Assembly (NCBI RefSeq): GCF_014356525.2
Contig: NC_052512.1
Coordinates: forward strand, 1,102,797 to 1,166,796
DNA: 64,000 bases
DNA from: Nilaparvata lugens
Lineage: Eukaryota > Arthropoda > Insecta > Hemiptera > Delphacidae
Reading direction: 5' to 3'
Shown here: piece after piece, positions 10,242 through 59,502 of the stretch
How positions within the stretch are numbered: the first letter of the stretch is position 1
Layout of the letters: each line of letters starts with the position of its first letter
Position numbers and translations under genes: made by a program
The notes under the pieces: model-generated
What the model was told of the DNA's origin: nothing
What the model saw: the letters and a program-made list of their open reading frames with translations, nothing else
Database searches by the model: none

Positions 10242-10283
10242 TTCTTCCCATTGTCGACATTTGTCTACACTGACATTGGGAAT
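10242..10283. repeat. piggyBac left subterminal repeat
   Basis: Directly inside the left tip, TTCCCATTGTCGACATTTGTC is followed by TACACTGACATTGGGAA. The TTCCCA(N)TGTCGACA motif recurs in the other subterminal regions at 10590-10620 and 12769-12860. Repeated motifs next to the tips are normally transposase binding sites in this superfamily; that role is inferred here. Confidence 0.6.
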
Positions 10284-10434
10284 TTTTTGTAGGGAATTTC
10301 CTCTGTATAGAAATTGTACAATAATTTCATGGTATTATATTGGCACTACTGCGTCGGCAAGCACGTACGGTATGGCAGTTTTGCCTCTGGTTTAGAAGCA
10401 TACATGATTTTTGTGAGTTGCTCCAGCGTTCATC

Positions 10435-12571: not shown

Positions 12572-12754
12572 TGATTTGTCAAGTACATAATTAACAATGT
12601 AATGATGCAATAAACCTTTTTAAAAATCAATTGTCAAGTAATTTGTAATGTAATGATGTAATAAAACGTTTTCATAATCAATTGTCAAGTAATTTGTAAT
12701 TTAATGATGAAATAAAACACATAAAAATAAATAATAGTACTTTTTCAACTACCA

Positions 12755-12862
12755 GAATACACCCCACCGTTCATTCCCACTGTTGACAAATGTAGACATG
12801 CATCTGTTTTATCTACCTGGGACCGATCATTCCCACTGTCGACATATGTCGACATGCTGTAT
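12755..12862. repeat. piggyBac right subterminal repeats
   Basis: Two direct copies: TTCATTCCCACTGTTGACAA and, about 58 bases on, ATCATTCCCACTGTCGACAT, each continuing to GACATGC. An inverted copy lies at about 10591-10623 (ATATGTCGACGGTGGGAACG). The core TGTCGACATATGTCGACA is itself palindromic. The spacing around both ends suggests transposase-binding arrays. Confidence 0.65.
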
Positions 12863-13594
12863 TTTGTATGTATCTACAAATTTTGCATATTTTATAGTAT
12901 ATCTATAGTGAATATGTAATACTAAAGTAAACTTTTCGTATAAACTAAGAAAAAATGAAAAAATAATAATTTGGGATGAAACGGGTTAATTCGTTTATTC
13001 TATTCTTCAATTGTGATTCAACTATTCATCGATTTCTTCGCATATTTACTCTGATAAACTTTGTCAAAATTGCAACCTCGTGTGGGCGTTTATCGCTATT
13101 TATCTGATCTACGGAACTTTTTTAAAGTGTGAATTACTTCTTCAAATTAATTCGTTTATTCTATTCTTCAATTGTGATTCAATTATTCATCGATTTCTTC
13201 GCATGTTTACACTGATAAACTTTGTCAAGTTCACAACCTTGTGTGGGCTTCAATTGCCATTCTTCTAACAATTGGCTTCACCTCATGTAACTCAAACTTT
13301 CAAGTTCATCATCTCTACCATTTGGAAATCAATCTAAAAATTCCACAACTTGAAGGTCGGATTATTCATTTGGAATTCTACATGCTCTTGCTTACATTTC
13401 CACTGGGGGATTTGCCTGCTGTGGTGGACGCTTCCATTCTTGTCATCGCATGGCCAGATCACATCGTCGCTTGCTGATGTCCTGTTCCCTTGGGTATTGC
13501 GGATTCATTGCCTGTCTGCCTGGCTGCATCTCCTCTTCAAGTTTTATTCAGGTTACGTAAATCGTTCTATTCAATTTTCATTTACGTATGTATT

Positions 13595-14725
13595 ACATAA
13601 TTGTTTTATTGATGTCTATCTTGACATTCAATTCACTGAGGCCACCGACGCCTATTAATTGATCTATTAATGTCTATCTTGACATTCAATTCACTGAGGC
13701 CACCGATGCCTATTAATTGATCTATTAATGTCTATCTTGACATTCAATTCACTGAGGCCACTGACGCCTATTAATGGTTTTATTGATGTCTATCTTGACA
13801 TTCAATTCACTAAGGCCACTGATGCCTATTAATTATTCTATTGATGTCTATCTTGACATTTAAATCACTGAAGGCCTATGCCACCTATATAATTATACTC
13901 AATATCAACAACTATTTTCATTGGATTTGACAGCTACCCTTGGCTTTACAAGTGATATTTTGAGGCCACTGACGCCTATTAATTGTTTTGTTGATGTCTA
14001 TCTTGACATTCAATTCACTGAGGCCACCGACGCCTATTAATTGATCTATTGATGTCTATCTTGACATTCAATTTACTGAGGCCACTGACGCCTATTAATT
14101 GTTCTATTGATGTCTATCTTGACATTCAATTCACTGAGGCAACCGACGCCTATTAATTGTTCAATTGATGTCTAACTTGACATTTAATTTACTGAAGGCC
14201 TATGCCGCCTATATTTTAATGTATTCTATTTGTTGAGCACTATCTACAGCTCATTGTCATTGTTATTATTCCTTTTGTACTATTGATGTCTGTCTTGACA
14301 TTCAATTCACTGAGGCCACCGACGCCTATTATTGTTCAATTGATGTCTAACTTGACATTTAATTTACTGAAGGCCTATGCCACCTATATTTTAATGTATT
14401 CTATTTGTTGAGCACTATCTACAGCTCATTGTCATTTGTTATTATTCCTTTTGTACTATTGATGTCTGTCTTGACATTCAATTCACTGAGGCCACTGACG
14501 CCTATTAATTGTTCAATTGATGTCTAACTTGACATTTAATTTACTGAAGGCCTATGCCGACTATATTTTAATGTATTCTATTTGTTGAGCACTATCTACA
14601 GCTTATTGTCATTTATTATTATTCCTTTTGTCAATTGATGTCTCACTTGACATTTAATTTACTGAAGGCCTATGCCGCCTATATTTTAATGTACTCTATT
14701 TGTTGAGCACTATCTACAGCTTGTC
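13595..14725 (+). repeat. Minisatellite inside the BEL solo LTR
   Basis: Many tandem, imperfect copies of a unit about 60 bases long with core GAGGCCACCGACGCCTATTA plus ATTGATGTCTATCTTGACATTCAATTCACT. A longer variant (~180 bases) in the second half adds AAGGCCTATGCCGCCTATAT and TTGAGCACTATCTACAGCT and repeats about four times. The same array type occurs in both LTRs at 37200-38230 and 44245-45455, so it is a fixed part of this LTR family. Confidence 0.88.
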
Positions 14726-15170
14726 ACTTATTATTATTATTCCTTTTGTAAATCATTAAGATTGAATTTTGCAGCAGTAGCTTTTTCATTATAGCACTCA
14801 ATTTATATTCGCGATTCAGGTATCATTAATATTACCTTTTCGATTATTGTCAGGCTTCAATGGTCATTAATGTCATTGACCTAATCTCATTTAAATTTTG
14901 TATTTCTCTAACGTTTTTTTATCACATGGTAATTATCCCAAGATTTCTCGACTCAATCTACTTACTATTGTTTTTGTATGTGGCCATCTGCCTATTATTA
15001 TTTTATTATTATTAAATCTTATCTTGTTGACTCATTTAGTCTTTTATTGGTACTTACCACACTTCAAGCTATCAGTATTTTTATGCACAGAATTCAAAGA
15101 TTTATTTGTAGATATTGATACCAACTATCATTCACAGTCCACTGCCCTGACCTTGGATTCTGTCACAATA

Positions 15171-16635
15171 TGTGCAAGAGAAAAATTTAATTCAATACTT
15201 TGATTGGAACTTTTAAATGATTGTACTATGTATCAGACTTAAAATTAATCTATCAAGTATCAGAAAAGTCACAGCCGAGTCTACAGTAATTATTTATATT
15301 CTTCATCAATCAGATGCATATGTCTTGAATGACCTACCTCCTATCCTCTTTACATTCTCACAAATATCCTCATAAAAAAAACTTCATATATCTGGTGTCC
15401 ATGCTCTTTTGGCTACGAGATTCCACCTTAATAATAATACTCATAAAATCCTCAATACTATCTTTCAATTAATGTAAAGTTTCATTCAACATACTTTTCT
15501 AATCTTTGAAAATTACTCATAATATGCAAACTGTTTATTCATTCTCTTTTACTATCCATTTTAATCATCTGTCCTAACATATTTCTAGCATTCTCAACTT
15601 CCTTTTCAAAACGTTCAAATTTTTTTTATATTTCAACAATTTAGTTTTCTAATCAATTATTTATTCCAAGTTCAGTATCAATTTCATGTTCTTTATTCAT
15701 CATCAAAATTTTATACTTGTTCAATTCTAATCTTAAAAAAAAATAAATTCAGTGAATAACTTTTATCAGATCAGTGAATAAGATGCATATACAATCATAC
15801 TAATGAGTCATTTTTACTCTATTATAACGTTCAAGAGAATATTAATCATGTAATTTTCAAATACTGTCACAGGTAAAATAGACCTGTTAATTCATAACTA
15901 TAGAAATTGTCTGCTATAATCATTGTTCATCTACTGGAATATGAATATTAATATGAAAATAATATACTATCAAAGGTAAGTATAGTCATTAATAATAATA
16001 AAAAATAAATATTTCAAATCTTATATTCAATTATTGAGAACATCATGTTCTTCATACTAAAATACTGCAATTAATCAAATTATTATTTACAATAGACAGC
16101 ATGTTTGCTAGTCTTCTACTATTTTTCACGAAATTGTCATCAAAATTAAGCAAAACTGAGTTGAATTCTCAAAGTTGAATATCTCTTCTGGAGATAGAAT
16201 TTAACTATACTAGACCAGAGTAAAAAAATTATATAAAAAAAATTTCTTGTCTGCAAAACAGCCAAGACTCATGGCCTTTTAAAAAAAATATATACAAGTG
16301 ATGCGTTCTTTTTGTATCTTGGATCAAGCCAATTTTGGTTACATAAAGAATACATACAAAGGTCAAAATCGGGAAGGATGTCTTGTCTCATTTTTGGGTA
16401 CCTTGAATATCATAATAATATTTTTTTTTTCATTGTCTGATGCTTACTTGCTGGATCCCAATACTTGAATCATTGTTTTCTTGAAACATGAACTGACTTA
16501 TAAATTAAAAGAATTAATGACTTACTATATGCATCCACCTAATTTAAATACTCAATAATAAAACAAGTTGTTATGCTACATCATTACTCTACAGTATAAA
16601 AAAGTTTCATCATGAATTGATTTACTTTCACGACC
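15171..16635. other. Gypsy 3' region continued, no gene seen
   Basis: AT-rich stretch between the BEL solo LTR and the end of the gypsy integrase. No open frame of note on either strand and no motif recognised. Together with 8458-9764 it forms about 2.7 kb of 3' untranslated gypsy DNA, where some gypsy relatives have an envelope-like gene; none is visible. Confidence 0.55.
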
Positions 16636-35706: not shown

Positions 35707-36069
35707 TCTAGGCCTACTGGAGGGTTACACCCCATAATACACGTTCTAACAATAGATTTAACACAGAACTCATTAAGCTAACCATATGCAGGCATCAATT
35801 TACTTATTATTGCAGCTACATTATAAATAAAATTCCAAACGATTTTATAGATAAACAAATGACACGTAATTTAAGCAAAAGCATAGATTATTGGATTGAG
35901 CATAACATATTTTTCAAACTAGTTGTATAAAGTATAATATTGTATCCAACAAGCATTGTTACTAAAAACATTGAGCAAGGGTTTTTCCATTTTCACGTTC
36001 TCGAACCAGGTATTGTAAATGTTCCCACATCATCTTTTTTTATTATTGTATTGTTTTATGTATTCCATG
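35707..36069 (+). pseudogene. LINE C-terminal fragment, split by the BEL element
   Basis: An open stretch from about 35722 to the TAA at 35930 encodes HNTRSNNRFNTELIKL, CSYIINKIPNDFIDK and RNLSKSIDYWIEH, the pattern found at the very C-terminus of many LINE ORF2 proteins (a HN(Y)TR motif, then an IYNKLP-type motif). It is followed by AT-rich 3' untranslated DNA up to the CCATG target duplication. The rest of the untranslated region and the tail are at 45975-46377. No RT core remains. Confidence 0.72.
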
Positions 36070-38739
36070 TGTAAAATCTGACAAAGCATCTATTGGAACG
36101 GTTTCACTTGTTATTCGTTCCGCTACTACGTAGACTTCATGTCGTCATCATGTCTGTCTGTCTGCGCGCTGTGTCTTTTGTGCGTCTGCGCTGTTCAGTG
36201 ACGTCTCAATCGCGGTTTTTGCCACTGCCCTAATCAGCTGGTTTTCTATACTTCTATTCGTATTTTTTCGTCGGATTGTTTGCCGTTGCTATTTTAATAT
36301 TTGTGCTATTCGATTTTTTAGAATTTAATCTTGTCTTTTGGCATCTTACCTTTTAGTTATTTGCCACTTTTTCAACATACGTTTCCAAACGTTTTCGTAC
36401 GTGGCTACATTTCCGCTTTCCCCTTTTTCTTACTAGCGTCTTTGCCTTTTGCTGTTTGTCATTCAATGGGGATAGTCGATGGTGCATTTACGCCTTCGGT
36501 CTAAACCCTTCATCTGAATTCATCGGACTTACAAAACCTTTTTAAAGTGTGAATTATTCTTCAAATTAATTCGTTTGTTCCATTCTTCAGTGTGATTCAA
36601 TTAGTCATCGAGTTCTTCACTCAATTACTCTGTTAAAATTGGATAAACTTTGTCTAAAATTGCAACAGCGTGTGAGCGTTTCATCGCTATTTATTTGATC
36701 TACAAAACCTTTTTAAAGTGTGAATTATTCTTCAGATTAATTCGTTTGTTCTATTCTTCAGTGTGATTCAATTATTCATCGAGTTCTTCACTCAGTTACT
36801 TGGTTAAAATTGGATAAACTTTGTCTAAAAATTGCAACCTCATGTAAGCTTCAGTTGCCATTTTTTCTACAATTGGCTTCACCTCGTAAACTTCAAACTT
36901 TCAAGTGCATCATCTCTACTGTTTGGAAATCAATCCAAAAAATTCCAAAATTTGAAGATCGGATTATTCGTTTGGAATTCTACTCGCTCCAGCCTACTTT
37001 TCCATTGGGGGATTCGCCTACTGTAATGGACGTTTCCATGCTTGTCATCGCATGGCCTAATCACTTCATCGCTTGCTGATGTCCTGTTCCTGTTGGTATT
37101 GCGGAGTCGTTGCCTGTCTGCCTGGCCGCATCTCCTCTTCAAAATTTTATTCAGGTTATGTAAATCATTCTTTTCAATTTTCATTTACGTATGCATCATT
37201 ATTGTTTTATTAATGTCTATCTTGACATTTAATTCATTGAGGCCACTGACGCCTACTTATTGTTTTATTAATGTCTATCTTGACATTCAACTCATTGAGG
37301 CCACCGACGCCTATTAATTCATTGTATTTAACAGTTACCCTTGACTTCATAAGTGATTTTTTGAGGCCACTGACGCCTATATAATTGTATTCAATTGTAG
37401 CAATTATTCTTTGTATTTAACAGCTACCCTTGGCTTTACAAGTGATTCATTGAAGGCCACTGTCGCCTATTATTAATGTCTATCTTGACATTCTTTCACT
37501 GAGGCTACCGACGCCTACCTATTGTTTAGTTAATGTCTAGCTTGACATTCATTTCACTGAGGCCATCGACGCCTATTTATTTATTGGATTTGACAGCTAC
37601 CCTTGGCTTTACAAGTGATTCATTGAAGGCCACTGTCGCCTATTATTAATGTCTATCTTGACATTCTTTCACTGAGGCTACCGACGCCTACCTATTGTTT
37701 AGTTAATGTCTAGCTTGACATTCATTTCACTGAGGCCATCGACGCCTATTTATTTATTGGATTTGACAGTTACCCTTGACTTCACAAGTGATTTTTTTGA
37801 GGCCACTGACGCCTACTTATTGTTTTATTAATGTCTATCTTGACATTCAACTCATTGAGGCCACTGACGCCTATATAATTGTATTCAATAGTAGCAACTA
37901 TTTATTTATTGGATTTGACAGCTACCCTTGGCTTTACAAGTGATTCACTGAGGCTACCGACGCCTATTTATTTATTGGATTTGACAGCTACCCTGGCTTT
38001 ACAAGTGATTCATTGAAGGCCACTGTCGCCTATTACTCGTTCTAATGATGTCTGTCTTGACATTCAATTCATTGAAGGCCCATGTCGCCTACATTTACCT
38101 GGATAATCTTCATTATATTTATTAGCTACCCTTAGCTTTTAGGTGTTATTCTAAGGCCAGTGACGCCTATTAATTATTTGGTCGAAGTCTATTTTGACAT
38201 TCAAATCACTGAAGGCCTATGCCACATATATTTTTATACGTTACTTGCTGAGCATTTTTTTTACAGCTTATTGTCATTTTTAATCATTATTATTGTACCT
38301 TAGTAATAACCTTCATTATTGCCCTCAATTATATTCATTTCAGGTATCATTATTAATACCTTTGCATTTATTGCAATATCATTAATACCAATATCATTAA
38401 TAATTTAATATCATTAATACCTTTGCAGTTATTGTCAGACCTCAATGGTCATTAATGGTCATTGATCTAATTTCTTTTAAATGTTATAGTTCTCTACATT
38501 ATTTCACATGTTGTAATTTTCCCAAGATTTGACTCATTGTTTTTGTATGTGGCCATCTGCCTACTATTATCATCTTATTATTATTAAATCTTATATTGTT
38601 GATTCATTTAGTCTTTTATTGGCGTACTTACCACACTTCAAGCTATCAGTATTTTTATGCACAGAATTCAAAGATTTATTTGTAGGTATTTATACCAACT
38701 ATCATCCACAGTCCACTGCCCTGCCCTTGGATTCTGTCA
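36070..38739 (+). repeat. BEL 5' LTR (2.67 kb)
   Basis: Starts TGTAAAATCTGACAAAGC and ends CCTTGGATTCTGTCA. It includes a minisatellite (about 37200-38230). The open frames inside (36810-37079, 37042-37317, 38529-38867) recur in the other LTR and have no family features. Confidence 0.95.
37200..38230 (+). repeat. BEL 5' LTR minisatellite
   Basis: Alternation of two modules: TTAATGTCTATCTTGACATTCAA with GAGGCCACTGACGCCTA, and TTGGATTTGACAGCTACCCTTGGCTTTACAAGTGATTC with GAAGGCCACTGTCGCCTATT (each quoted in pieces). A ~155-base pair of modules is repeated exactly near 37410-37580 and 37585-37750. Confidence 0.88.
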
Positions 38740-39290
38740 TAAAAATTGGTCCTCCAAGCCGTTCATTTTTGAGCCAGTCTTCACCTAGGATAATTGTTAA
38801 TTTTTATTACCCATTTCTTGGTCCATTGAACCTTGGGGTTTCAGTGACCGTGTGCCTAATAGTCTAGCTTGACGCCAATGATTAGGTCCCACTCTAGTGT
38901 ATATTTTATTCATTGTACCTTGTATGTTTATATTGTTTAATATTAAGCATTCACACACTTGTTTCAAATTTTCAGTACTGGCTGCAACTCAAAGCACGCT
39001 GCGACGTGTATGCACCAGCTATCAACTATCTTGTACCCTGAGAGACTGAACCGCACTGAACTGGTCACAGACGGCTATTGCGCATTGAGAAAACAACACA
39101 CGGCATACCACACCGCCTTGCGAGCTCGCTACTTGACTCGCCGCACAGCAAGCTTGATACAACTTGCCTCAAACACAGGCGTGCCTCTCTGCGTACTGGA
39201 CCAGCGCCCAAGGTTGCTTATTGGCGCAGCAATCGCATTGCTACAGTGCCTACTTGTCATTCACTCAGGTTTTTCTGTTAACTTTTAAGC
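38740..39290 (+). other. BEL leader with primer binding site
   Basis: TGGTCCTCCAAGCCGTTC at 38747-38764, seven bases after the LTR, begins TGG and is a plausible tRNA primer site. The frame 38959-39288 ends just before gag and has no recognisable family; I treat the stretch as untranslated leader. Confidence 0.65.
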
Positions 39291-40397
39291 ATGTCTGATC
39301 ATGAGGAAGATTCACTTCCTGAGCCTTCTGCTCTTTTCAATACAAGAGACAATTTGCACCAGGAAATAGATTGGTTCATAACCAGCTATAACGATTATGT
39401 TGTGGACACTGAAGCCACTTATTATCAACTATTGACTGTAAAAAACGAACTAGGTTCACTTAGAATTAAGTATGATAAGATACATCAACAACTATGGAAT
39501 TCAGAGTTGCAAGTGCAGGACACTTCAATTCATTTTGAGATACTCAATAAGTTTATCTCCATTACCTCTAAGGCAAACGCTGCATTAACTGCCTTTGAAA
39601 GCAGACAACGCATCAATGAGGCCACTGCTGGTGCTTCCCAGCGGCCAACATCTCAAAACGCACCTTTGGCAAATTTTCAGTTGCCTCAGATACCGCTTCC
39701 ATGCTTCAATGGGGAGCTTTCAAAATGGCAAGCATTCTCAAGTGCTTTTACTAATATTATTGGTAATCAAGATAACATTAATGATTCATTGAAATTTTTC
39801 TATCTTCGTCAATCACTCAGTGGTGAAGCTCTTGCTAGAGTGGAACACATTGAAGCTGACGAAAATGGTTTTCAGCTTGCATGGAACCTCTTAAGGGAGA
39901 GGTATGACAACAAGAGATTAATTGCTGCCAGGCACGTCACGGCAATTGAATCTCCGCCTACCATAAAGCGTAACTGTCCGCAATCATTACGGGCATTCAT
40001 TGACTTTTGCAAGTCCCACATCACCGCGCTCGAAGCGCTTCAACTTGGAGTCCAAATCAAGGACTTGTTGTATATGCACAAAATGTTGTTGCAGTTGGAT
40101 ACTGCTACTGTTCGAGAATGGGAAAAGAGTGTTGGTATACACGACATTCCCACCATTGATAAATTCTGGAATTTTTTGGAATCACAATGCAAAATCATGG
40201 AAGCTGTTGCTTCAAGCTCAGCTAACCATCATCAAGGAAATGTACAGCAAAGTACATCCAACTCGGTTGGTGCTCATAGCAAGCCGAAGTTCAATCAAAT
40301 GCTCAAGCTAGGATGCAGGTTACTACCTCTTCTATGTCACCTTGTAGTTTTTGTAATTCTGTTGGTCATTTTCCAAATCGTTGTAATGAATTATTGA
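39291..40397 (+). pseudogene. BEL/Pao Gag (DUF1759-like), frameshifted before the zinc fingers
   Basis: Starts MSDHEEDSLPEPSALF at 39291. Helical N-terminal region (about residues 20-110), then the DUF1759-type Gag core: FQLPQIPLPCFNGELSKWQA, FYLRQSLSGEALARVEHIE, LAWNLLRERYDNKRLIAARH. It continues through LLQLDTATVREWEKSVG and a Ser/Asn-rich linker. The frame is lost near 40300: the last ~35 residues (RLLPLLCHLVVFVILLVIFQ) are out-of-frame translation of the zinc-finger region, which is read properly in the frame of 40313-40942. Gag forms the particle that carries element RNA. Confidence 0.88.
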
Positions 40398-40942
40398 AGT
40401 TACAGGTTACTGATCGTTGGAATGCTGTCCGTGACAAAAGGTTATGTTATAATTGCCTCAAGCCTTTTGCACACAATCATGTTTGTTCGGACAAATCGTG
40501 TACACTTTGTGGCAAGAGTCACCACACTGTTCTTCATAGGTCGTATCCTCAATCACGGGACACCCAACCTACTTCTAAGGATAAGGTAACTTCAAATGTT
40601 ATTCATTCTCAATCCTTTGCTCCCTCCAGGGGCAAGAATGCTGTTTTGAATTCCGTCATGGTTCAGAATGTGGAAACAACTAAGCAAGCTGTTTCTCATG
40701 CAGAACAGCCTCAGAAGAACTCTCATGTCACAATGAGCTCCACTTCGTCTCTGTGTTTGCAACAGCAATCAACTGTCGCCTTGTTACCTACTGCCGAAGT
40801 TTTGGTTCAATCTTCTAGTGGGGAATTTATTAAAGCAACCGCTCTTTTAGATTCTTGCTCTGATTGTAATTTGATGTCAACTAGGTTGGCTGAAAAATTG
40901 TCACTTGTTACTTTGTATTCTGACACTTTGATCATAGTGTAG
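40300..40942 (+). pseudogene. BEL/Pao zinc knuckles and start of protease
   Basis: Read in a frame shifted from gag. Contains the zinc knuckle CSFCNSVGHFPNRC, then CYNCLKPFAHNHVC and CTLCGKSHHTVLH, the cluster usual at the end of BEL/Pao Gag. After a linker the retropepsin-like domain begins: TALLDSCSDCNLMSTRLAEK. The catalytic aspartate is present but the usual glycine of D-S/T-G is cysteine. The frame ends at TAG 40940-40942; the protein sequence continues in the frame of 40984-42414 (GENKTKSSISH just upstream of 40984), a second frame change. Confidence 0.85.
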
Positions 40943-42950
40943 GTGAGAATAAGACCAAATCATCTATTTCTCATTCAGTTTGCTTGTCTTCATCTGATCG
41001 TTCGTGGTCGGTTGAAGAAAATTGTATTGTAGTTGATAGCATATCAGCTAATGTTCCTAGGGTGAACATCGATCTTTCCAAAATTTCAATTCCTGTTGAA
41101 CTCAAATTAGTGGATCCGTTGTTTGATCAGCCTAAGCCTGTAGATCTGTTACTTGGTGCTGGCATATTCGCATCGATACTTCAGCCTGGTAAATTGTATC
41201 TAGCTCAAAATGCTCCCATTCTTCAGAAAACCAGTCTAGGTTGGGTCATATTTGGTCCTTGTAAAGCTATTCGTCCTATTGCAGCACCTCGTTCGTGCCT
41301 CCCCGCTTCACCTGTGGCCGCTCCCCATAGGGTCACATCGAATGTCTTAACTTCAAATGATGTCTCTCATCAGTTAGAGAAATCAGTTCAGGAAATCAGT
41401 TCTCATTCAGTTCAGGTATCAGCTACCACTTCTTCTCATAATGTTATCTCAGGCATAATCAATAGTTGCTCAACTTATCACAAAATTGTTCGTACAACAG
41501 CATATGTTCTATGGTTCATTCATAATTGTAAAAAACAAAATTCAGTCGCTCCGCGCTTTGGTCAATTAGCTGTCTCTGAAATTTCAGAAGCTGAAAATTG
41601 TATCTTGAAATCTATTCAAGAAGAAGCTTTCTCTGCCGAACTTAAAGCATTGCGTCAAAATCAGGAGCTATTGCCTAATAGTTCTATTAAAGCCTTGTCA
41701 CCATTTGTTCATTCAGATTCTCTGCTCAGAGTTGGTGGACGTTTGCAAAATGCAAATGCTTCATTTGATTACAAACATCAAATATTGTTGCCTAGCAATC
41801 ATAAATTCACTCGTGCATTGATTGTTGCTCACCATCGTCATATAAGTCATGCTGGGGTGCAGGCCACCATGGCCAGTGTAAGACAACGATTTTGGTTTCC
41901 CTCCACCCGTCGCACCATCAAAAGTGTATTGCGGCATTGCATATTGTGTTTTTGCTTTTCGGCTCTTCGCTCTGAGCAAATCATGGGTAGTTTACCAGCG
42001 GCCCGCGTTCAGGCTAACTTTCCCTTTTATAATTGTGGTTTGGATTACGCCGGTCCTATTTCCATCCGTGTAGGCGGCCCCAAATCTCGTACTTTTTCTA
42101 AGGCATACTTGTCGCTGTTTGTGTGTATGGTAACTCGTGCCGTTCATATTGAAACTGTCTCGGAACTTACTTCCAAGGCATTTATTGCCGCTCTGATTTG
42201 TTTTTCTGCTCGTCGTGGCATCCCGCATTCCATTTTTCGGACAACGCCACAACTTTCATTGGTGCCAACAATGAGCTACGTGAGCTCCACGAATTTTTGT
42301 CCTCTGATCGTCTCAAATCAGATATTCATGACACTATGTCTGTACTCAACATCCAATGGCACTTCATTCCCCCGCGGGCTCCACACTTCGGTGGACTCTG
42401 GGAGAATGCGGTAAAAAATTTCAAACGCATATTCCGTGTAGTCACTTTCAACAAAGTATTTAACTTTGAAGAAACCTGTACGCTTGCTGCTCAGGTCGAG
42501 GCCATCTTGAATTCGCGCCCTCTTGTTCCCTTGTCGGAAGATCCACATGATTTTGCGTACTTATCTCCAGGTCATTTTTTGATTGGACGTCCACTTACGT
42601 CATTACCCTTCTTGCCGCCCAACACCAAACACATTGACCATCGTTCACATTGGTATCAACTTGCCGTTTCTATTCAGGAGCTCTGGGATAGGTGGTCTCG
42701 TGAATATTTAACCACTCTTCAGAAAAAAGGCAAATGGTTAAACAGTTGTGAAAATTTGAAGGTCGGTACAGTTGTCATCTTGAAGGATCCTGGTTCCGCG
42801 CAGTCCACTTGGAAGCTGGCACGCATTACTGAAGTTCATCCCAGTAAGGACGACAAGGTTCGAGTTGTCACTGTTCTCACTCCCTCCGGCACCTTTAAGA
42901 GAGCTATTTCGAGTTTAGCACCTCTTCCCATTGATGAGGATTCTAGTTAA
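40943..42950 (+). pseudogene. BEL/Pao protease end fused to integrase; RT and RNase H deleted
   Basis: The frame of 40984-42414 opens with the rest of the protease (KLVDPLFDQPKPVDLLLGAG, LGWVIFG) and within about 60 residues passes to pre-integrase sequence (YHKIVRTTAYVLWFIHNC). RT and RNase H are entirely missing; the join is near 41370-41440. Integrase follows: zinc domain (HHRHISHAG, then CILCFCF), core with GLDYAGPI (first aspartate) and a frame change at the T5 run near 42235 just before SDNATTFIG (second aspartate). The frame of 42198-42950 carries GGLWENAVKNFK (glutamate) and a DUF5641-type C-terminus (LWDRWSREYLTTLQ, WKLARI). This would integrate element DNA but is broken. Confidence 0.9.
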
Positions 42951-43098
42951 TCCCCTTGCTCTTGGTTCATGTTGTATTTTCAGGTTTCATTGTTTTTTTC
43001 CCCTGGTTCTCACATGGGGCCCAGTTTTCAATTTCCAATTGCCTTGCCAGATTTTACATATTTCTTACTTTTTCTTATTGTGCCATACCCCTGTATGA

Positions 43099-43116
43099 CA
43101 CAAGGGGCCCAGTTTA
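43099..43116 (+). other. BEL polypurine tract
   Basis: ACAAGGGGCCCAGTTTA directly precedes the 3' LTR. A similar motif, ACATGGGGCCCAG, occurs at about 43011-43023, possibly a duplicate tract. Confidence 0.6.
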
Positions 43117-45969
43117 TGTAAAATCTGACAAAGCATCTATTGGAACGGTTTCACTTGTTATTCGTTCCGCTACTACGTAGACTTCATGTCGTCATCATGT
43201 CTGTCTGTCTGCACGCTGTGTCTTTTGTGCGTCTGCGCTGTTCAGTGACGTCTCAATCGCGGTTTTTGCCACTGCCCTAATCAGCTGGTTTTCTATACTT
43301 CTATTCATATTTTTTCGTCGGATTGTTTGCCGTTGCTATTTTAATATTTGTGCTATTCGATTTTTTAGAATTTAATCTTGTCTTTTGGCATCTTACCTTT
43401 TAGTTATTTGCCACTTTTTCAACATACGTTTCCAAACGTTTTCGTACGTGGCTACATTTCCGCTTTCCCCTTTTTCTTACTAGCGTCTTTGCCTTTTGCT
43501 GTTTGTCGTTCAATGGGGATAGTCGATGGTGCATTTACGCCTTCGGTCTAAACCCTTCATCTGAATCATCGGACTTACAAAACCTTTTTAAAGTGTGAAT
43601 TATTCTTCAAATTAATTCGTTTGTTCCATTCTTCAGTGTGATTCAATTAGTCATCGAGTTCTTCACTCAATTACTCTGTTAAAATTGGATAAACTTTGTC
43701 TAAAATTGCAACAGCGTGTGAGCGTTTCATTGCTATTTATTTGATCTACAAAACCTTTTAAAGTGTGAATTATTCTTCAGATCAATTCGTTTGTTCTATT
43801 CTTCAGTGTGATTCAATTATTCATCGAGTTCTTCACTCAGTTACTCGGTTAAAATTGGATAAACTTTGTCTAAAAATTGCAACCTCATGTAAGCTTCAGT
43901 TGCCATTTTTTCTACAATTGGCTTCACCTCGTAAACTTCAAACTTTCAAGTGCATCATCTCTACTGTTTGGAAATCAATCCAAAAAATTCCAAAATTTGA
44001 AGATCGGATTATTCGTTTGGAATTCTACTCGCTCCAGCCTACTTTTCCATTGGGGGATTCGCCTACTGTAATGGACGTTTCCATGCTTGTCATCGCATGG
44101 CCTAATCACTTCATCGCTTGCTGATGTCCTGTTCCTGTTGGTATTGCGGAGTCGTTGCCTGTCTGCCTGGCCGCATCTCCTCTTCAAAATTTTATTCAGG
44201 TTATGTAAATCATTCTTTTCAATTTTCATTTACGTATGCATCATTATTGTTTTATTAATGTCTATCTTGACATTTAATTCATTGAGGCCACTGACGCCTA
44301 CTTATTTTTTTATTAATGTCTATCTTGACATTCAACTCATTGAGGCCACCGACGCCTATTAATTCATTGTATTTAACAGTTATCCTTGACTTCACAAGTG
44401 ATTTTTTTGAGGCCACTGACGCCTACTTATTATTTTATTAATGTCTATCTTGACATTCAACTCATTGAGGCCACTGACGCCTACTTATTATTTGATTAAT
44501 GTCTATCTTGACATTCAACTCATTGAGGCCACCGACGCCTATTAATTCATTGTATTTAACAGTTACCCTTGACTTCATAAGTGATTTTTTGAGGCCACTG
44601 ACGCCTATATAATTGTATTCAATTGTAGCAATTATTCTTTGTATTTAACAGCTACCCTTGGCTTTACAAGTGATTCATTGAAGGCCACTGTCGCCTATTA
44701 TTAATGTCTATCTTGACATTCTTTCACTGAGGCTACCGACGCCTACCTATTGTTTAGTTAATGTCTAGCTTGACATTCATTTCACTGAGGCCATCGACGC
44801 CTATTTATTTATTGGATTTGACAGCTACCCTTGGCTTTACAAGTGATTCATTGAAGGCCACTGTCGCCTATTATTAATGTCTATCTTGACATTCTTTCAC
44901 TGAGGCTACCGACGCCTACCTATTGTTTAGTTAATGTCTAGCTTGACATTCATTTCACTGAGGCCATCGACGCCTATTTATTTATTGGATTTGACAGTTA
45001 CCCTTGACTTCACAAGTGATTTTTTTGAGGCCACTGACGCCTACTTATTGTTTTATTAATGTCTATCTTGACATTCAACTCATTGAGGCCACTGACGCCT
45101 ATATAATTGTATTCAATAGTAGCAACTATTTATTTATTGGATTTGACAGCTACCCTTGGCTTTACAAGTGATTCACTGAGGCTACCGACGCCTATTTATT
45201 TATTGGATTTGACAGCTACCCTTGGCTTTACAAGTGATTCATTGAAGGCCACTGTCGCCTATTACTCGTTCTAATTGATGTCTGTCTTGACATTCAATTC
45301 ATTGAAGGCCCATGTCGCCTATATTTACCTGGATAATCTTCATTATATTTATTAGCTACCCTTAGCTTTTAAGTGTTATTCTAAGGCCAGTGACGCCTAT
45401 TAATTATTTGGTCGAAGTCTATTTTGACATTCAAATCACTGAAGGCCTATGCCACATATATTTTTATACGTTACTTGCTGAGCATTTTTTTTACAGCTTA
45501 TTGTCATTTTTAATCATTATTATTGTACCTTAGTAATAACCTTCATTATTGCCCTCAATTATATTCATTTCAGGTATCATTATTAATACCTTTGCATTTA
45601 TTGCAATATCATTAATACCAATATCATTAATAATTTAATATCATTAATACCTTTGCAGTTATTGTCAGACCTCAATGGTCATTAATGGTCATTGACCTAA
45701 TTTCTTTTAAATGTTATAGTTCTCTACATTATTTCACATGTTGTAATTTTCCCAAGATTTGACTCATTGTTTTTGTATGTGGCCATCTGCCTACTATTAT
45801 CATCTTATTATTATTAAATCTTATATTGTTGATTCATTTAGTCTTTTATTGGCGTACTTACCACACTTCAAGCTATCAGTATTTTTATGCACAGAATTCA
45901 AAGATTTATTTGTAGGTATTTATACCAACTATCATCCACAGTCCACTGCCCTGCCCTTGGATTCTGTCA
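43117..45969 (+). repeat. BEL 3' LTR (2.85 kb)
   Basis: Starts TGTAAAATCTGACAAAGC and ends GGATTCTGTCA. Nearly identical to 36070-38739 apart from about 185 extra bases of tandem units near 44345-44530 and scattered single differences (e.g. CTGCACGC for CTGCGCGC near 43210). Confidence 0.95.
44245..45455 (+). repeat. BEL 3' LTR minisatellite
   Basis: Same modules as 37200-38230 but with two or three more TTAATGTCTATCTTGACATT / GAGGCCACTGACGCCTACTT units at the left, which accounts for the length difference between the LTRs. Confidence 0.88.
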
Positions 45970-45974
45970 CCATG

Positions 45975-46377
45975 TGTGAAATATTCACTTCATGATGGCC
46001 TCAAGACGTCACAGTGGTTAATTGGATTCTACTTTGTCATATAGTATGTACTATTCTTAAGTTTTTAATTTTTTTCTGAGCCTTTGAGACTTTTGTATAT
46101 TGGTGTAATACTTTCTTTAGCTCTATTTAATTCAATTTGTATACATACATCTTCTTACTGACCAGAATTGAAGCAGAATAAGTCAACCGCAACTCACTAC
46201 CAACACACAAGGACTCTAATGTTGGCAGTGCCGAATATTACATTGATAATCAATGTTGTACAAGTTACAATCGATGTCTATTTGTAGCTAATTGTATATT
46301 GCATACTTTAGTGATTGTATTTTACAAACATTTGTATGTGATTTTTGGAAATAAATTCAATTCAATTCAATTCAATT
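45975..46377 (+). mobile_element. LINE 3' end with AATTC tail (continuation of 35707-36069)
   Basis: After the CCATG duplication comes AT-rich 3' untranslated DNA ending GGAAATAAATTCAATTCAATTCAATTCAATT, tandem AATTC units. It is the third LINE end in the window with a short tandem tail rather than poly(A). Confidence 0.75.
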
Positions 46378-47210
46378 ACTTGAACATTGAGAATTTTGAA
46401 TATGATAGAATTATCAGTATTGTTTTTCATCTTGAATGTCATTTTCAATACTGGAAGATATAGTTATCATTTCCCAAAATAGCGGGAAAATGTTATTTTT
46501 TCATGATAATATTTTGATAATTGATTTTTCTACGTTTCAATGACGGGATTTGCTTTTGTCTGTATATGTATGTTGGCATGTTTGTAAATTAGCTTTTGAT
46601 GATTACAGCTTGGCAATGCCCTCGGTTTTATTTATAACAGGTAATATTGTCATCGTCAATACACGCCAATCAGTCATTGGCCGTTTCAACACTTACGATT
46701 TCTCGTCACGGTACCGGTTTCTTTTTTCCGATGTCCGAGGGCTAATTGGGGTAACATATTGACAATGAGATCTGTTTATAAATGCTGTACGAGGTCTACT
46801 GTTCACAGAACTACTAGCTACAAGTATTCAACTGCAGAAGTCGGAAATAGACATTTCATTTTACTCATGGAAGACACCCACCCTCATCTATCTACTTCAC
46901 GTCTATGAAGATAACAATATCAAAGAAACAGAGTTGAAAGTACAAAGGCATAGAGATGGAAATTTAGAAGTAAATGAATTGTTATAATTCAATTACTCAG
47001 GTATATTAGAACTGACTACTTTAGCATTTACCTGATTAATATTTATATATTTATTTATTCATATGCAAATACAATTCAGGTAAAAACAACAGGCATTTGC
47101 CCAAAACTGCTTCAAACCTTAATTTGGAATACACAGTCTAAAGGTTATGCTACTTACGTAACTTAAATGATAATTTGTACACAATTTTGAGTCCAAAAAA
47201 TGGCAAAATT
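46378..47210. other. No gene recognised
   Basis: AT-rich. The frame 46550-46762 has no family features. 47035-47195 resembles 30705-30890 (see there). Confidence 0.5.
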
Positions 47211-47470
47211 CTAGCCGGCATGCTCCCCCTGTTATCTCAGTTATTATTGAAGATATCGACTCAAATTTTTTTTTAAATAAAAGAGGAGGAAAAAATAAAG
47301 CGCGCTAGCCTATTTTTATACAATTTAGTTAAATTTTAATATTAGAAATAGCTGTTTCAAAACTAACCTTATTTTGAAGAATGGACGATTCTAAATATAT
47401 TATTATCTCAACTATTTTTGAAGGTATCAACTCAATTTTTTTTTGATGAAAGAAGAAGGAAAAATAGGTG
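47211..47470 (+). repeat. Left arm of the long inverted repeat
   Basis: Pairs with 52290-52557. The arm itself contains two diverged copies of a ~75-base module, (TATCTCA)(G/A)(T/C)TATT(AT)TTGAAG followed by a T-run and GAAAGAGGAGGAAAAAATA-like purines, and a third copy lies at 47885-47960 (CTCAACTATTTTTTAAGATATC). Confidence 0.85.
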
Positions 47471-48711
47471 TTGCTTCTATGAATTTTATTTTGAAAGACG
47501 TTTTAAAACATTAAAAAAACAGTTTGAATTTCTGAAGTGAGACTCAACAATGAAGAATGATGTTATGTAAACATGAAGAATGAACTGTGATTAATGAAGC
47601 CAATAGCACAGCTGACTCATATTTTATGGCCGAATTAAAGATTTCAAAATAAGCGATTGCTCGAATGAATGTTCGCATCAATTCAACTTCTTCGAAAGTG
47701 ATTGAAGAGGTAACTACAGGCAAGCATGGACATTGGAATACAATATAATTGATTAATCGATGAATTGAATAGAAATTAGATATTATTCTGGGGAGTTTTT
47801 CATTAAATTAACATTAACTTTCTAAAGCTGACCCTGAAACAGAACAGAAATTGGTAATTTTTGGTTTATGTGACTAACAATAATTGTATCTCAACTATTT
47901 TTTAAGATATCAATCAATTTTTTTTAAATTGAAGAGGAAGAAAAAATAGGTGTCGGTAATATAAATTCTATCCTAAAATACTAATTTAAACATTAAAAAA
48001 ACAATTAGGTTTTGGTCAATTTATGTCAGGTTCAAGTCATTTATATTTATAGTAATTAAGATGATTGAATAGAACAATTGAACATTGAGATAGGATTCAA
48101 GAGTTAAGATAAAGAGATTTTTCAATAGTGGAGACTCTTTGAGTATGGAAAGAACTATAATGTTAAGAACTAGGAGTTGAAGAAGTGGTGGACAATGTAC
48201 AAACCTTTACTCTTAATCACATTTTCTTATGACAATGATACATTTTAATTGAATGAACTTGTTATATATATATTTGAACTACCGCCTAAACAGAGTAGTC
48301 AACATAAAATATTGCACAGAAATGAAGAAAACACTGATTCAATTTATTACCAACACATTTATTTTACATGAATATGATATGAATATTACAAACATTTGCA
48401 TTATAATCTAAATTATTATCCATTGTACATTTCTACACTACAACATTCAAAAAGATCAGACAGGCATTGAATTTGAAACACAAAGACAGACACATTCATA
48501 AGGCGCTGTTCACCTGTTCTAGTATTTTCTATTCTGTATCGTATTCGACTTAACAATAATATAAAGTGTTCAATAAAGATCATTGAAATAATTCTACTGA
48601 GAGTTCTTATTCTTTCAAAAATACACAACAGAACTCTTGAATCAAGTCAAATAATTACTAACCTGAACAAGTATGACCAAAGCTTACTGAGCCTGGGCCA
48701 AGAACAGATCT

Positions 48712-51290
48712 CTCCTAAACTTAACTTTTTCTAATCTGAGATTTTCCTAAAATTAGCTTCACCTAACTAGAGTTTTTCCCAACCTAAAGCTTTTCCTAAC
48801 CTGAGCTTTAACTAACCAAAGCTTTTCCTAACATAAGCTTTACCTAACCTTAGCTTCTCCTAACCTTAGCTTCTTCTAACCTAAGCTTTTCCTAACCTAA
48901 CCTAACCTTTTCCTAACCTAAGCTTTTCCTAACCTAAGCTTTACCTAACCTTAACTTTTCCCAACCAAAGCTTTTCCTAACCCATGCTTTTCTCAACCTA
49001 AGCTTTTCCTAACCTAAGCTTTTCCTAACCTAAGCTTTCACTAACCAAAGCTTTTCCTAACCTAAGCTTTTCCTAACCTAAGCTTTACCTAACCTTAACT
49101 TTTCCCAACCAAAGCTTTTCCTAACCTAAGCTTTTCCTAACCTAAGCTTTTCCTAACCTAAGCTTTTCCTAACCTAAGCTTTTCCTAACCTAAGCTTTTC
49201 CTAACCTAAGCTTTTCCTAACCTAACCTAAGCTTTTCCTAACCTAAGCTTTTCCTAACCCATGCTTTTCTCAACCTAAGCTTTTCCTAACCTAAGCTTTC
49301 CCTAACCTAAAGCTTTTCCTAACCTAAGCTTTCACTAACCAAAGCTTTCCCCAACCCTAGCTTTTCCTAACCTAAGCTTTACCTAACGTTAGCTTCTCCT
49401 AACCTAAGTTTTACCTAACCCAAGCTTTACCTAACCTTAACTTTTCCCAACCAAAGCTTTTCCTAACCCATGCTTTTCTCAACCTAAGCTTTTCCTAACC
49501 TAAGCTTTTCCTAACCTAACCCAACCTAACCTAACCTAAGCTTTTCCTAACCTAACCTAACCTAACCTAAGCTTTTCCTAACCTAACCTAACCTAACCTA
49601 ACCTAACCCAACCTAACCTAACCTTTTCCTAACCTAACCTAACCTAACCTAAGCTTTTCCTAACCTAACCTAACCTAACCTAAGCTTTTCCTAACCTATC
49701 CTAACCTAACCTAACCTAACCTAACCCAACCTAACCTAAGCTTTTCCTAACCTAACCTAACCTAACCCAACCTAACCTAACCTAACCTTTTCCTAACCTA
49801 ACCTTACCTAACCTTACCTAACCTAAGCTTTTCCTAACCTAACCTAACCTAACCTAACCTAACCCAACCTAACCTAAGCTTTTCCTAACCTAACTAACCT
49901 AACCTAACCTAACCTAACCTAACCAACCTAACCTACCTAACCTAACCTAGCTTTTCCTAACCTAACCTAACCTAACCTAAGCTTTTCCCAACCTAACCTA
50001 ACCTAACCAAACCTAACCTAACCTAAGCTTTTCCTAACCTAACCTAACCTAACCTAACCCAACCCAACCTAACCTAACCTAAGCTTTTCCTAACCTAACC
50101 TAACCTAAGCTTTTCTAACCTAACCTAACCTAACCTAACCTAACCTAACCTAAGCTTTTCCTAACCTAACCTAACCTAACCTAAGCTTTTCCCAACCTAA
50201 CCTAACCTAACCAAACCTAACCTAACCTAAGCTTTTCCTAACCTAACCTAACCTAACCTAACCCAACCCAACCTAACCTAACCTAAGCTTTTCCTAACCT
50301 AACCTAACCTAAGCTTTTCCTAACCTAACCTAACCTAACCTAACCTAACCTAAGCTTTTCCTAACCTAACCTAACCTAACCGAAGCTTTTCCTAACCTAA
50401 CCTTACCTAACCTAAGCTTTTCCTAACCTAACCCAACCTAACCTAACCTAACCTAACCTAACCTAACCCAACCTAACCTAACCTAAGCTTTTCCTAACCT
50501 AACCTAACCTAACCCAACCTAACCCAACCTAACCTAACCTAACCTAACCTAACCTAAGCTTTTCCTAACCTAACCTAACCTAACCCAACCTAACCTAAGT
50601 TTCTCCTAACTTAAAGCTTTTCCTCACCTAAGCTTTCACTAACCAAAGCTTTCCCTAACCTAAGCTTCACTCAACCTTAGATTCTCCCAACCTTAGCTTC
50701 TCCTAACCTAAGCTTTCCTAACCAGAGCTTTTCCCAACTTAAGCTTATTCCTCACCCAAGGTTTTCTTAACCTAAGCTTTCCCCAACCAAAGCTTTTCCT
50801 TACCTTAGCTTCTCCTAACCTTATCTTTTCCTAACATAGGCTTTCCCTAACCTTAGATTTTTCCAACCTTAGCTTTTCCTCACCAATTTTTCCCCAACCT
50901 AAGCTTTCCCTAATTTGTGCTTTTTTTAACCTAAGCATTTCTCAATCGAAGCTTTCCCCAACCAAAGCTTTTCATAACCTAAGCTTTCACAAACCAAAGC
51001 TTTTTCTAACCTAATTTTTCCCAACCCACAGTTTCCTAGCCTAAGTATCTCCTAACCTAAGATTTTCTCAACCTAAGTGTTTCTAAGCTAATGCCTCCTA
51101 ACCAAATCCTTTCTATGCAAAATCTTTCCAACCTAACCTCCCCTAACCTAACCTTTTTCAACCCAAACCTTTGTAACCTGAGTTTTTTATTATCCCCAAC
51201 CCAACAAAGCCTAACTCGAACTAACAAATGCAGTCCAGCCCAACCATTGAGCTCCCCTCTAACCAAGCATTTTCCAACCTAATATAACAA
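48712..51290. repeat. Telomere-like array: CCTAA pentamers interleaved with GCTTTT
   Basis: Built of CCTAA (complement of the insect telomeric TTAGG) in blocks of two to nine, separated by GCTTTT. The commonest period is 16 bases: CCTAACCTAAGCTTTT, creating an AAGCTT site in each unit. The left third (48712-49500) is mainly the 16-base unit with variants (CCCAACCAAAGC, CCATGCTTTTCTCAA). The centre (49500-50600) is nearly pure CCTAA runs with occasional CCCAA. The right edge (50600-51290) decays. The G-rich strand is the minus strand. Confidence 0.93.
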
Positions 51291-51305
51291 AGCCTTACCA
51301 GATAA

Positions 51306-51336
51306 AGACTGAGCAACCCTCAGACTTGCTCAGTCT
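51306..51336. repeat. Perfect hairpin
   Basis: AGACTGAGCAA and TTGCTCAGTCT pair perfectly (11 bp) across a 9-base loop, immediately beyond the array. Confidence 0.75.
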
Positions 51337-51388
51337 TCATCACTTAAGGTTTGATAGTCACATCAAACTTTGGTAGGTAGGGTTTCAT

Positions 51389-52289: not shown

Positions 52290-52557
52290 CGACACGTATT
52301 TTTTCTTCTTCTTTCATTAAAAAAATTTAGTCCCATAATATCTTTAATAATAGTTGATACAAATCATTATAATTTAGAATCGTCCATTCTATAGAATAAG
52401 GTTAGTTTTGAAACAGCTATTTCTAATATTAAAATTAAATCAAATGGTATAAAAATATGCTAGCGCGCTTTATTTTGTCTTCCTCTTTCATTTTAAAAAA
52501 AAATTGAGTCGATATCTTCAATAATAACTGAGATAGCAGGGGGAGCAGGCCGGCTAG
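52290..52557 (-). repeat. Right arm of the long inverted repeat
   Basis: Inverted counterpart of 47211-47470; I estimate 85-90% identity by eye. Confidence 0.85.
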
Positions 52558-52789
52558 AGCTTAGCCCAAAAAATGTATCTACTACAATTTTGAATCTATT
52601 AGATTGATCAATTTCCAAATACGAATCCAAACAAAACTCTTCCTTCACAATTGCAAAAAAATATTGAAAATTTCACTCAAATCCACAAACTCATGTTTTA
52701 TTACCGCAATCATTATGTTTCAAATTCAAATTTGCGTTGCGTTGCTGTTACTCAGCTGCTCTCTGCACCTATTTTCTCACGTGCATGTC

Positions 52790-53960
52790 GCTGGCCCGGC
52801 TATAATCGAATTACAACATACTAACCATGTCAATATTTAGTACCTATTTCGTACTATTTAGTACCTCCAATGAAAAAATTTGTACCTCACCCCTAACTGA
52901 GTTATTGATTTTTCTAAAGTGCCGGGCCAGAGACATGGTTGCCCGGGCTATCTTCAAATTTGAACTCAAGCTGTGCACCAATATTTAGTACCTATTTAGT
53001 ACTATTTAGTACCTCCAATGGAAAAATTTGTACCTTAAAGGTGGCGGAAATACAGCATGAAAATAGGGTCAATGACCTCTCAGCCCGGCTATGTCTGAAT
53101 TTCACCAATCTAACTATGCCAATATTTAGTTATAATTTAGTACTATTTAGTACCTACAATAAAAAATTTTTTATCTCAAAGGTTACAGAGTTATTGCATG
53201 AAAATAGTTAGGGTCAATGACCTCTCAGCCCGGCTATGTCTGAATTTCATGAATCCAATTATGCCATTAAATAGTACCTATTTCGTACTATTTGGTACCT
53301 TCAATAAAAAAAATTTCACCTCAAAGGTAACAGAGGAAATACAGCATGAATGTGGCAAATGTCTGTGACCTCTCAGCCCGGCTATGTCTGAATTTCATCA
53401 AACTAATTAAGCCAATATAATAGTTCCCATTTAGTACTATTTAGTACCTACAATAAAAAATTTTTCATCTCAAAGGTTACAGAGTTATTGCATGAAAATA
53501 GTTAGGGTCAATGACCTCTCAGCCCGGCTATGTCTGAATTTCATCAATCCAATTATGCCAATATTTAGTACCTATTTCATACTATTTAGTACCAATAATA
53601 AAAATTTTCTTTTCTGAAAGGTTACAGAGTTATTGCATGTAATAGCAGGGGTCAATGACCTCTGCACATGGGCATGTCACTGGCCCGGCTATGTCTGAAT
53701 TTCAACAAAATAATTTTGCCAATATCTAGCACCTATTTCGTACTATTCAGTACCACCATTAAAAACATTTGTCCCTTCAAGTAGTGCTTGCACTACGTCG
53801 GTGGAGCGGCGCGACGCGGCGCGGCTATGTCTGAATTTCAACAAACTAATGATGCCAATATTTAGTATCCATTTTTTACCATTATTAAAAACATTTGCAC
53901 CTTCAAGTAGAGCGTGCACTACGAAGGTGGAGCGGCGCGACGCGGCGCGGCGTATCAAGT
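52790..53960 (+). repeat. Satellite with ~147-bp unit, about eight copies
   Basis: GCCCGGCTATGTCTGAATTTCA recurs (in diverged form at 52795 and 52944) at about 53083, 53230, 53377, 53524, 53686 and 53820. Each unit also has AATATTTAGTACCTATTTCG, TACTATTTAGTACC, AAAGGTTACAGAGTTATTGC and GGGTCAATGACCTCTCAGCC (containing the palindrome GGTCA-ATGACC). The last two units change into CpG-rich sequence. Open frames 52939-53211 and 53743-53958 are by-products. Confidence 0.9.
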
Positions 53961-58287: not shown

Positions 58288-59502
58288 GTCCAGTCAACGA
58301 AAGATTATAGAGGGAAAAGTTTGGAACACAATTTTTGACCCCGCAGCTCTTTTAAGGATAGTTAGGGGGTGAACATATCAAAAGTCCTCACATTTGTGAG
58401 GACTCACACAGTCCTCACCCATACCCACTGTTCTAAGGGGGTGGGGGTAGTTGAAAGTACCATATATTTTGGTTTTTGCTTATATCTCGAACAATATGCG
58501 TCTTTCGAAAATTCTTCTTGAATACAAAATTAAAGCTTACAAATTAGCCTACAAGTCTTATCTGTAACATTTTTCCATATCTATATAGTTTCTAGACATG
58601 AGAATTCACCACTCAACACTAAAGCTGCTATAACAATATATATGGAAAGCTTAAAATGGTGAAAAAATAATCAAATCGAAGAGAATTGAATCTTCCACTA
58701 CACAACGTTCAGTACTTATTTTTGGATGCATTGTTGTTGAGTAATAAGTCCTGAAAGTTCGAAAAGTTGGGAGAGAAGCTTTCTTTACACTTTTAAAAGT
58801 GGATATCTCGGAAAATAAAGGAGCTATCACAAAACTGTACTGAACAAAATTTGTAGGAAATTTATCTAGCTTCATTTTTGTTCTGTTAGTCATGTCGCTG
58901 GAATGCATTGTTTCCTAGATAGATGCGTGTAAGCCAGAAATGAAAAGACGCAACTTTCAAACCACACTCATCCCTTAATCACAAGGGGTAGGGATGAAGA
59001 CTTTTGATATGTTTACCTTCTAAGTAGTCCAAACAATGCAAGTCAAATATTGTGTTCCAAACGTTCCCTCCAAATTTCTCTGTCAATTGATCTATTGTTG
59101 TTAAACTGAAGATTTCACACTCATCACTATAACGGCTGCAACAATCGTAGGGAGATGCGTAATATAATGAAATAATAAATTGAAGAAATATGATGCTATA
59201 TGAGCTCATGATTAGCACTGATTTTTTCAATCAATCGTTAAAAAGTTATAAGGACAAAGAGATGAAAATTCGGAGCCGGAAGGGTTTCTCTTCAAATGTT
59301 GACACCTTCAAGAGCTCATATCTAGAAAACTATGACAGATATGGAAAATTGTTACAGACGAAACTTGTAGGTTAATTTGTAATCTTCAATTGTGTATTCG
59401 AGAAAAATTTCCGAAAGACGCATATTGTTCGAGCTGCGGGGTCAAACATTGTGTTCCATACTTCTCCCTCTATACCTTCTTTTTAGCATTCGTTGCCTGG
59501 AC
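58288..59502. mobile_element. Terminal-inverted-repeat element flanked by TA
   Basis: The left end GTCCAGTCAACGAAAG and the right end (complement of GTCCAGGCAACGAATG) are flanked by TA (58286-58287 and 59503-59504). Inverted similarity extends far inward in blocks: TATAGAGGGA(A/G)AAGT(T/A)TGGAACACAAT, TGACCCCGCAGCTC, AACAATATGCGTCTTTCG, TACAAATTA(G/A)CCTACAAGT and TTTTCCATATCT. An inner pair, AACATATCAAAAGTC, is inverted at 58373 and about 59005. No transposase found; probably a non-autonomous Tc1/mariner-like foldback unit. Confidence 0.8.

Follow-up and report, generated by a model that had tools for sequence, protein, structure and literature searches.

Organization of the array

Positions 48712-51290 of the window (the whole 64-kb stretch of DNA analyzed) are occupied by a tandem array of two short words, CCTAA and GCTTTT, and the whole of this array is enclosed by two long inverted repeats (Table 1). 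TRF detects a 16-base-period array at 48713-51077, with 152.8 copies, and a 5-base-period array at 49494-50598. On the + strand of 48712-51290, CCTAA is found 252 times, GCTTTT 56 times, and the exact 16-mer CCTAACCTAAGCTTTT 32 times, against 8.96, 0.34, and 0 expected, respectively, from 50 single-base shuffles. These arrays and word counts agree with the original prediction, which had proposed a hybrid array of ~2.6 kb with a 16-base unit at this place. In the rest of the 64-kb window, neither the 16-mer nor the 10-mer AACCTAACCT is present on either strand.

A grammar of two words, (CCTAA)n GCTTTT, in which mismatches and indels were permitted, was used to parse the stretch 48700-51300 and gave 385 pentamers and 114 six-base words. 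For the description by zones, 104 of the latter were counted, with the left zone, the core, and the right zone contributing 49, 25, and 30, respectively, the excluded ones being one word before 48713 and nine in the degenerate stretch after 51080. When both outer zones are counted together, 77 of their 79 GCTTTT-type words come after exactly two pentamers and the remaining two after three, whereas the 25 blocks of the core all have between 4 and 14 pentamers, with a mean of 7.6; the number of pentamers per block shows no overlap between the counted outer zones and the core. Then, the insertion of GCTTTT at regular places, as originally described, holds for the outer zones, where it recurs every 16 bases, and not for the core, where its spacing is irregular and mostly 16+5k.

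Table 1. Features of the inverted-repeat unit and of the array within it (positions in the window)
Feature	Positions	Strand	Remarks
Left CCAAAAAATG, candidate target-site duplication	47193-47202	+	Adjoins outer TIR end; 8-bp reading, CAAAAAAT, at 47194-47201
Left terminal inverted repeat (TIR)	47202-47472	+	271 bp; starts GGC; aligned to right arm
Subterminal repeat module, copy 1	47391-47524	+	78% identical to 47874-48006
Subterminal repeat module, copy 2	47874-48006	+	78% identical to 47391-47524
Left outer zone, 16-mer CCTAACCTAAGCTTTT minisatellite	48713-49504	+	49 GCTTTT-type words, 27 exact; 47 after two pentamers, 2 after three
Core, (CCTAA)4-14 blocks split by GCTTTT-type words	49505-50599	+	Exact: 162/190 pentamers, 22/25 six-base words
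Right outer zone, more diverged 16-mer minisatellite	50600-51077	+	30/30 words after two pentamers; exact: 20/60 pentamers, 7/30 six-base words
Degenerate right array margin	51078-51290	+	9 six-base words, each after 1 to 8 pentamer-like words
Imperfect palindrome, right array edge	51290-51352		27-base arms, 81%
Right terminal inverted repeat (TIR)	52291-52566	-	276 bp; aligned to left arm
Right CCAAAAAATG, candidate target-site duplication	52566-52575	+	Adjoins outer TIR end; 8-bp reading at 52567-52574

Departure from the grammar was followed in 200-base bins. The five core bins (49500-50500) show a mismatch of 2-3%, the bins of the left zone 3.6-15.8%, and the three bins covering 50500-51100, the first of which takes in the end of the core, 10.6-17.8%. 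In the last, degenerate bin, the mismatch reaches 24%, with 16 indels. The nearly pure pentamer center and the decay of both edges noticed originally are therefore recovered (outside the five central bins, the mismatch is 3.6-17.8% as far as 51100). Within the left zone, the stretch around 49100-49300 comes close to the core in uniformity, with 3.6% mismatch, which counts against the explanation preferred below. The palindrome adjoining the right edge is possibly a fork-stalling site.

Duplications are also observed inside the array. The core segments 49946-50115 and 50150-50319, offset by 204 bases and spanning five GCTTTT words, are 170 bases long and differ at no more than two positions; in the left zone, runs of four and five units are repeated at offsets of 144 and 486. 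Moreover, the 25 long blocks of the core are contiguous, an arrangement with a chance of ~1e-22 under random order; therefore, these blocks did not originate separately along the array.

The inverted-repeat container and its surroundings

The inverted repeats that enclose the array were absent from the original prediction. Arm against arm, 238 matches are found in 278 aligned columns, corresponding to 88.5% of the ungapped columns, that is, a difference of 11.5%. Outside the arms, the identity in the inverted sense drops to 23% over 70 bases, and the homology ends at the flanking word. This A-rich word, CCAAAAAATG, has two occurrences in the 64-kb window, each abutting one of the inverted repeats on its outer side, and its reverse complement has none. 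The length of the duplication depends on how the ends are read, being 8 bp (CAAAAAAT) for GGC...GCC and 10 bp for GC...GC. A reading of 9 bp implies uneven element ends, the symmetric readings being those of 8 or 10 bp.

Among 400,000 random flank pairs, 177 were alike over at least 8 bases and 12 over at least 10. These pairs were drawn from repeat-poor parts of the window with a boundary shift of up to 3, and those less than 300 bases apart were skipped yet counted in the total. An earlier version of the test, with duplicated stretches included, gave 212 of 200,000 pairs at 8 bases or more and 104 at 10 or more, values that we read as inflated by the duplicated elements of the window itself and by nearby draws. 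The CCAAAAAATG pair thus resembles a target-site duplication. Another short direct match, ACAATTTTGA, is present outside both ends of the unit (47181-47190 and 52584-52593) at unequal distances from them, and it is probably due to chance.

With the 8-bp reading, the unit has a length of 5,365 bp and the array corresponds to its central 48%, leaving 1,511 bases of the unit on the left side and 1,276 on the right side. Within and beside the arms, diverged modules of ~65-130 bases recur, and for part of copy 1 (47404-47466) an inverted relative is found in the right arm. Thus, what is found is a single copy with the array inside the element boundaries and the duplication outside them, as for a transposon-borne tandem repeat, and this arrangement makes it likely that a mobile DNA element carries the array as its cargo. 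We infer mobility from this one copy, as the flanks of the unit are not found a second time in the 64-kb window; the 11.5% difference between the arms and the A-rich composition of the flanking word also weigh against the transposon reading.

A different reading would be that of a free-standing ordinary satellite, the inverted repeats then being a small element that was inserted twice, independently, or a chance arrangement. Tandem repeats are indeed common in the window (60 TRF rows), and one copy of the unit is what is in hand, both of which are in agreement with this possibility. Nonetheless, a single flanking word is common to the outer ends of both arms, and the arm homology ends at that word, which makes a free-standing satellite improbable in comparison with an array carried by a transposon.

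Regarding the coding content of the unit, no closed ORF of at least 110 aa is present in it, and a Pfam scan of 9 of the 27 stop-to-stop frames that overlap it (at least 40 aa) gave no match reaching the curated cut-off, the weak matches in these nine frames having E values of 0.021 (the best) and 0.18. Because of this lack of a sizeable ORF or Pfam match (9 of 27 frames), the unit is read as nonautonomous. A MULE transposase was not found in the nine frames scanned, an absence that is expected of a nonautonomous copy. Assignment to a Mutator-like family is accordingly a prediction and not a proof, a likeness and not membership, because no transposase was found and the superfamily rests on the length of the duplication and the form of the TIRs. 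In the 64-kb window, no Rfam family reached the gathering score and no tRNA was detected; a coding or RNA function was rejected on these Pfam (9 of 27 frames), Rfam, and tRNA results. An exact 23-mer of the array had no occurrence in viral_contigs and genome_contigs, nor had the TIR pattern in viral_contigs, although a zero in these virus/prokaryote collections says little.

Other elements are present in the same window. An LTR-type element with DUF1759 and DUF5641 domains, both typical of BEL/Pao elements, spans 36061-45981 and has a diverged relative near 9761-15177. Direct repeats of ~2.7 kb or more are found at both of its ends, and each repeat contains a 58-base and a 173-base minisatellite of its own, this being a second mobile element of the window that carries tandem arrays. 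Also, an ORF at 10605-11771 matches DDE_Tnp_1_7, a domain typical of piggyBac, and an overlapping ORF in another frame (11663-12571) may be its continuation. The mobile-element domains of the window (DDE_Tnp_1_7, DUF1759, and DUF5641) are suggestive of an insect source. Immediately beyond the right end of the unit, a ~145-base tandem repeat extends over 52794-53883 (4.7 copies by TRF at 52978-53663). Finally, the segments 58486-58582 and 59337-59433 form an inverted pair of 97 bases, 89% complementary and 754 bases apart, which is a candidate small inverted-repeat element.

Origin of the telomere-like core

We hold, with moderate confidence, that the array is the internal minisatellite of a nonautonomous Mutator-like DNA transposon in which the 16-mer came first and the pentamer core was expanded later. 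This order is the simplest one because both margins are made of two-pentamer units and are mostly more decayed, and long runs are found only in the center. The 16-mer in its regular form seems to have come before the pentamer core, which looks like an expansion that took place within it at a later time. According to this explanation, the element would at first have carried a 16-bp tandem repeat with two CCTAA words, and transposition of the unit would depend on the transposase of another element. At the center, the pentamer run of a single unit, or of a few units, would have exceeded about four copies, becoming prone to replication slippage, a threshold that is suggested by the block counts. 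Then, the enlarged blocks would have been copied locally via unequal exchange. Such a late and central expansion would account for a young, uniform center between old, decayed edges.

If the margins were once a single array, variant units are expected to be common to both. For example, the variant GCTTTCACTAACCAAA is found in both outer zones (49034, 49328, and 50632), as are GCTTCTCCTAACCTTA (48853 and 50808) and GCTTCTCCTAACCTAA (49392 and 50696). Exact variant 16-mers of the left and right zones were compared against a column shuffle, with 14 indel units dropped. Right units with at least three differences were found in the left zone in 1 of 13 cases (P 0.04), those with at least two in 2 of 19 (P 0.09), and those with at least one in 3 of 24 (P 0.45). 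The excess of variants common to both margins over the column shuffle is modest, which counts against the explanation we prefer, and for this reason we infer, rather than prove, the 16-mer-first polarity. A seed for the 16-mer was also searched in the element's own flanks, where the best match of 12/16, against 13/16 in the larger stretch 1-47200, gives no evidence of one.

On the other hand, the transposon or its ancestor could have inserted in or beside telomeric DNA and taken up a stretch of TTAGG repeats, with GCTTTT added or mutated in and then co-amplified. The pentamer is of the exact insect telomere class, and mobile-element carriage of telomeric repeats has been proposed as one origin of interstitial sites (PMC9693754, PMC6410037). 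Moreover, the chance that a tandem pentamer pair belongs to the CCTAA/TTAGG class, one of 102 classes, is ~0.7% at the given base composition, which favors a telomeric source, although the locus was chosen for its telomere likeness and this value is not a fair probability. Against a telomeric seed, the long pentamer runs are restricted to the low-divergence core, and both counted margins consist of two-pentamer 16-mers. We regard a telomere-seeded origin as the less likely of the two, the array having probably grown out of a 16-base repeat and not out of a chromosome end. The likeness to TTAGG needs no chromosome-end origin and no telomeric seed, although the first two pentamers may have come from a telomere.

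A true telomere remnant, left by chromosome fusion or by break repair, is far less credible. The words are indeed head-to-tail, with CCTAA on one strand only and no TTAGG within the array, as would be expected from such a remnant. However, if an interstitial telomeric sequence is taken as pure head-to-tail telomere repeats, here the pentamer runs are broken by GCTTTT-type words every 2-14 pentamers in the counted zones. These interruptions, the single orientation, the decay of both margins, and the inverted-repeat enclosure make a remnant very unlikely, in line with the original view that the array is not a simple telomere-repair scar. A chromosome-fusion scar was rejected on the interruptions, the single orientation, and the enclosure. 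The same original view had proposed a satellite seeded from, or imitating, telomeres. Its satellite-like character and hybrid unit stand, but with the inverted repeats and the candidate duplication that bound the array, the best reading is that it forms the inner part of a transposon. Since the 16-mer would be older and the core later, imitation is favored over seeding.

It could also be considered that the core acts as a functional telomere mimic, with a (TTAGG)n tract held long by the binding of telomere proteins or by exchange with chromosome ends. We find this unlikely; if true, every transposition would leave an additional telomere-like site at an internal position, and telomeres could be seeded or fed by the element.

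Significance and comparison with known systems

Interstitial telomeric DNA is often taken as the scar of a chromosome fusion, and this locus points to a different route, in which a minisatellite with two telomere-like words resides in an inverted-repeat element and its center has apparently been expanded to telomere-like DNA. We consider that the locus is a real, tidy structure, likely a minisatellite borne by a transposon, with an expanded core that resembles telomeric repeats. If several copies of the element exist, they would generate scattered false telomeric signals, misleading for in situ hybridization and for assembly checks of chromosome ends. Also, the abrupt step from blocks of two or three pentamers to blocks of 4-14 makes a slippage threshold testable within one locus. 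Tandem repeats riding on inverted-repeat elements are an already known kind. The telomere-motif core, together with the sharp split between two or three and four or more pentamers, is a variant of it that is not seen among the literature matches listed. In the titles and opening abstract lines of the same matches, no telomere-motif array inside an inverted-repeat element was recognized, and no title on such a repeat was found with the sequence words of the unit. The present locus adds a concrete container to the proposed carriage of telomeric DNA by mobile elements.

By its title, a work of Hikosaka and Kawahara from 2004 reportedly deals with tandem repeats that travel with a Xenopus MITE, an inverted-repeat element. 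We know of no telomere-like motif in those repeats, and the host differs from the present one. In addition, one catfish study is said, by its title, to co-locate a hAT element with an interstitial telomeric sequence.

For interstitial telomeric DNA in general, two reviews (PMC9693754, PMC6410037) propose slippage, unequal exchange, and mobile-element carriage as origins. Our locus resembles the sequences treated there in being internal telomere-motif DNA, and it differs from them in the second word GCTTTT, the strict 16-base margins, and the defined inverted-repeat container.

Mutator-like elements have duplications of 8-11 bp and TIRs commonly of hundreds of bp (PMC6446971). The 8-bp CAAAAAAT or the 10-bp CCAAAAAATG falls within that range. 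For arthropod MULEs, PMC13359780 indicates that G/C predominates in the first three terminal positions and that the TIRs are mostly 20-95 bp, the longest given being 1,193 bp. The TIRs of the unit (271 and 276 bp, starting with GGC) fit the length in the former source (PMC6446971) and the G/C start in the latter (PMC13359780), but they are longer than the usual arthropod 20-95 bp (PMC13359780). Rehavkus, placed in or beside the Mutator superfamily and present in arthropods and annelids, is similar in its TIRs of 26-400 bp and its element-borne minisatellite (PMC6446971). However, Rehavkus has a 9-bp duplication and a PHD-finger transposase, and its minisatellite precedes the 3' TIR (PMC6446971), whereas for the unit the symmetric readings give a duplication of 8 or 10 bp, no transposase was found in the frames scanned, and the array is near-central.

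Finally, the nearest system in behavior is Tetris, a foldback element of Drosophila virilis (PMC4079207), which is apparently nonautonomous and has long TIRs, duplications of 8-10 bp, and tandem repeats that vary in number, a change for which its authors suggested unequal crossing-over. In this case, the difference is that the ~220-bp repeats of Tetris are inside the TIRs (PMC4079207), whereas here an array of 16- and 5-base periods, with a telomere-like core, lies between them.
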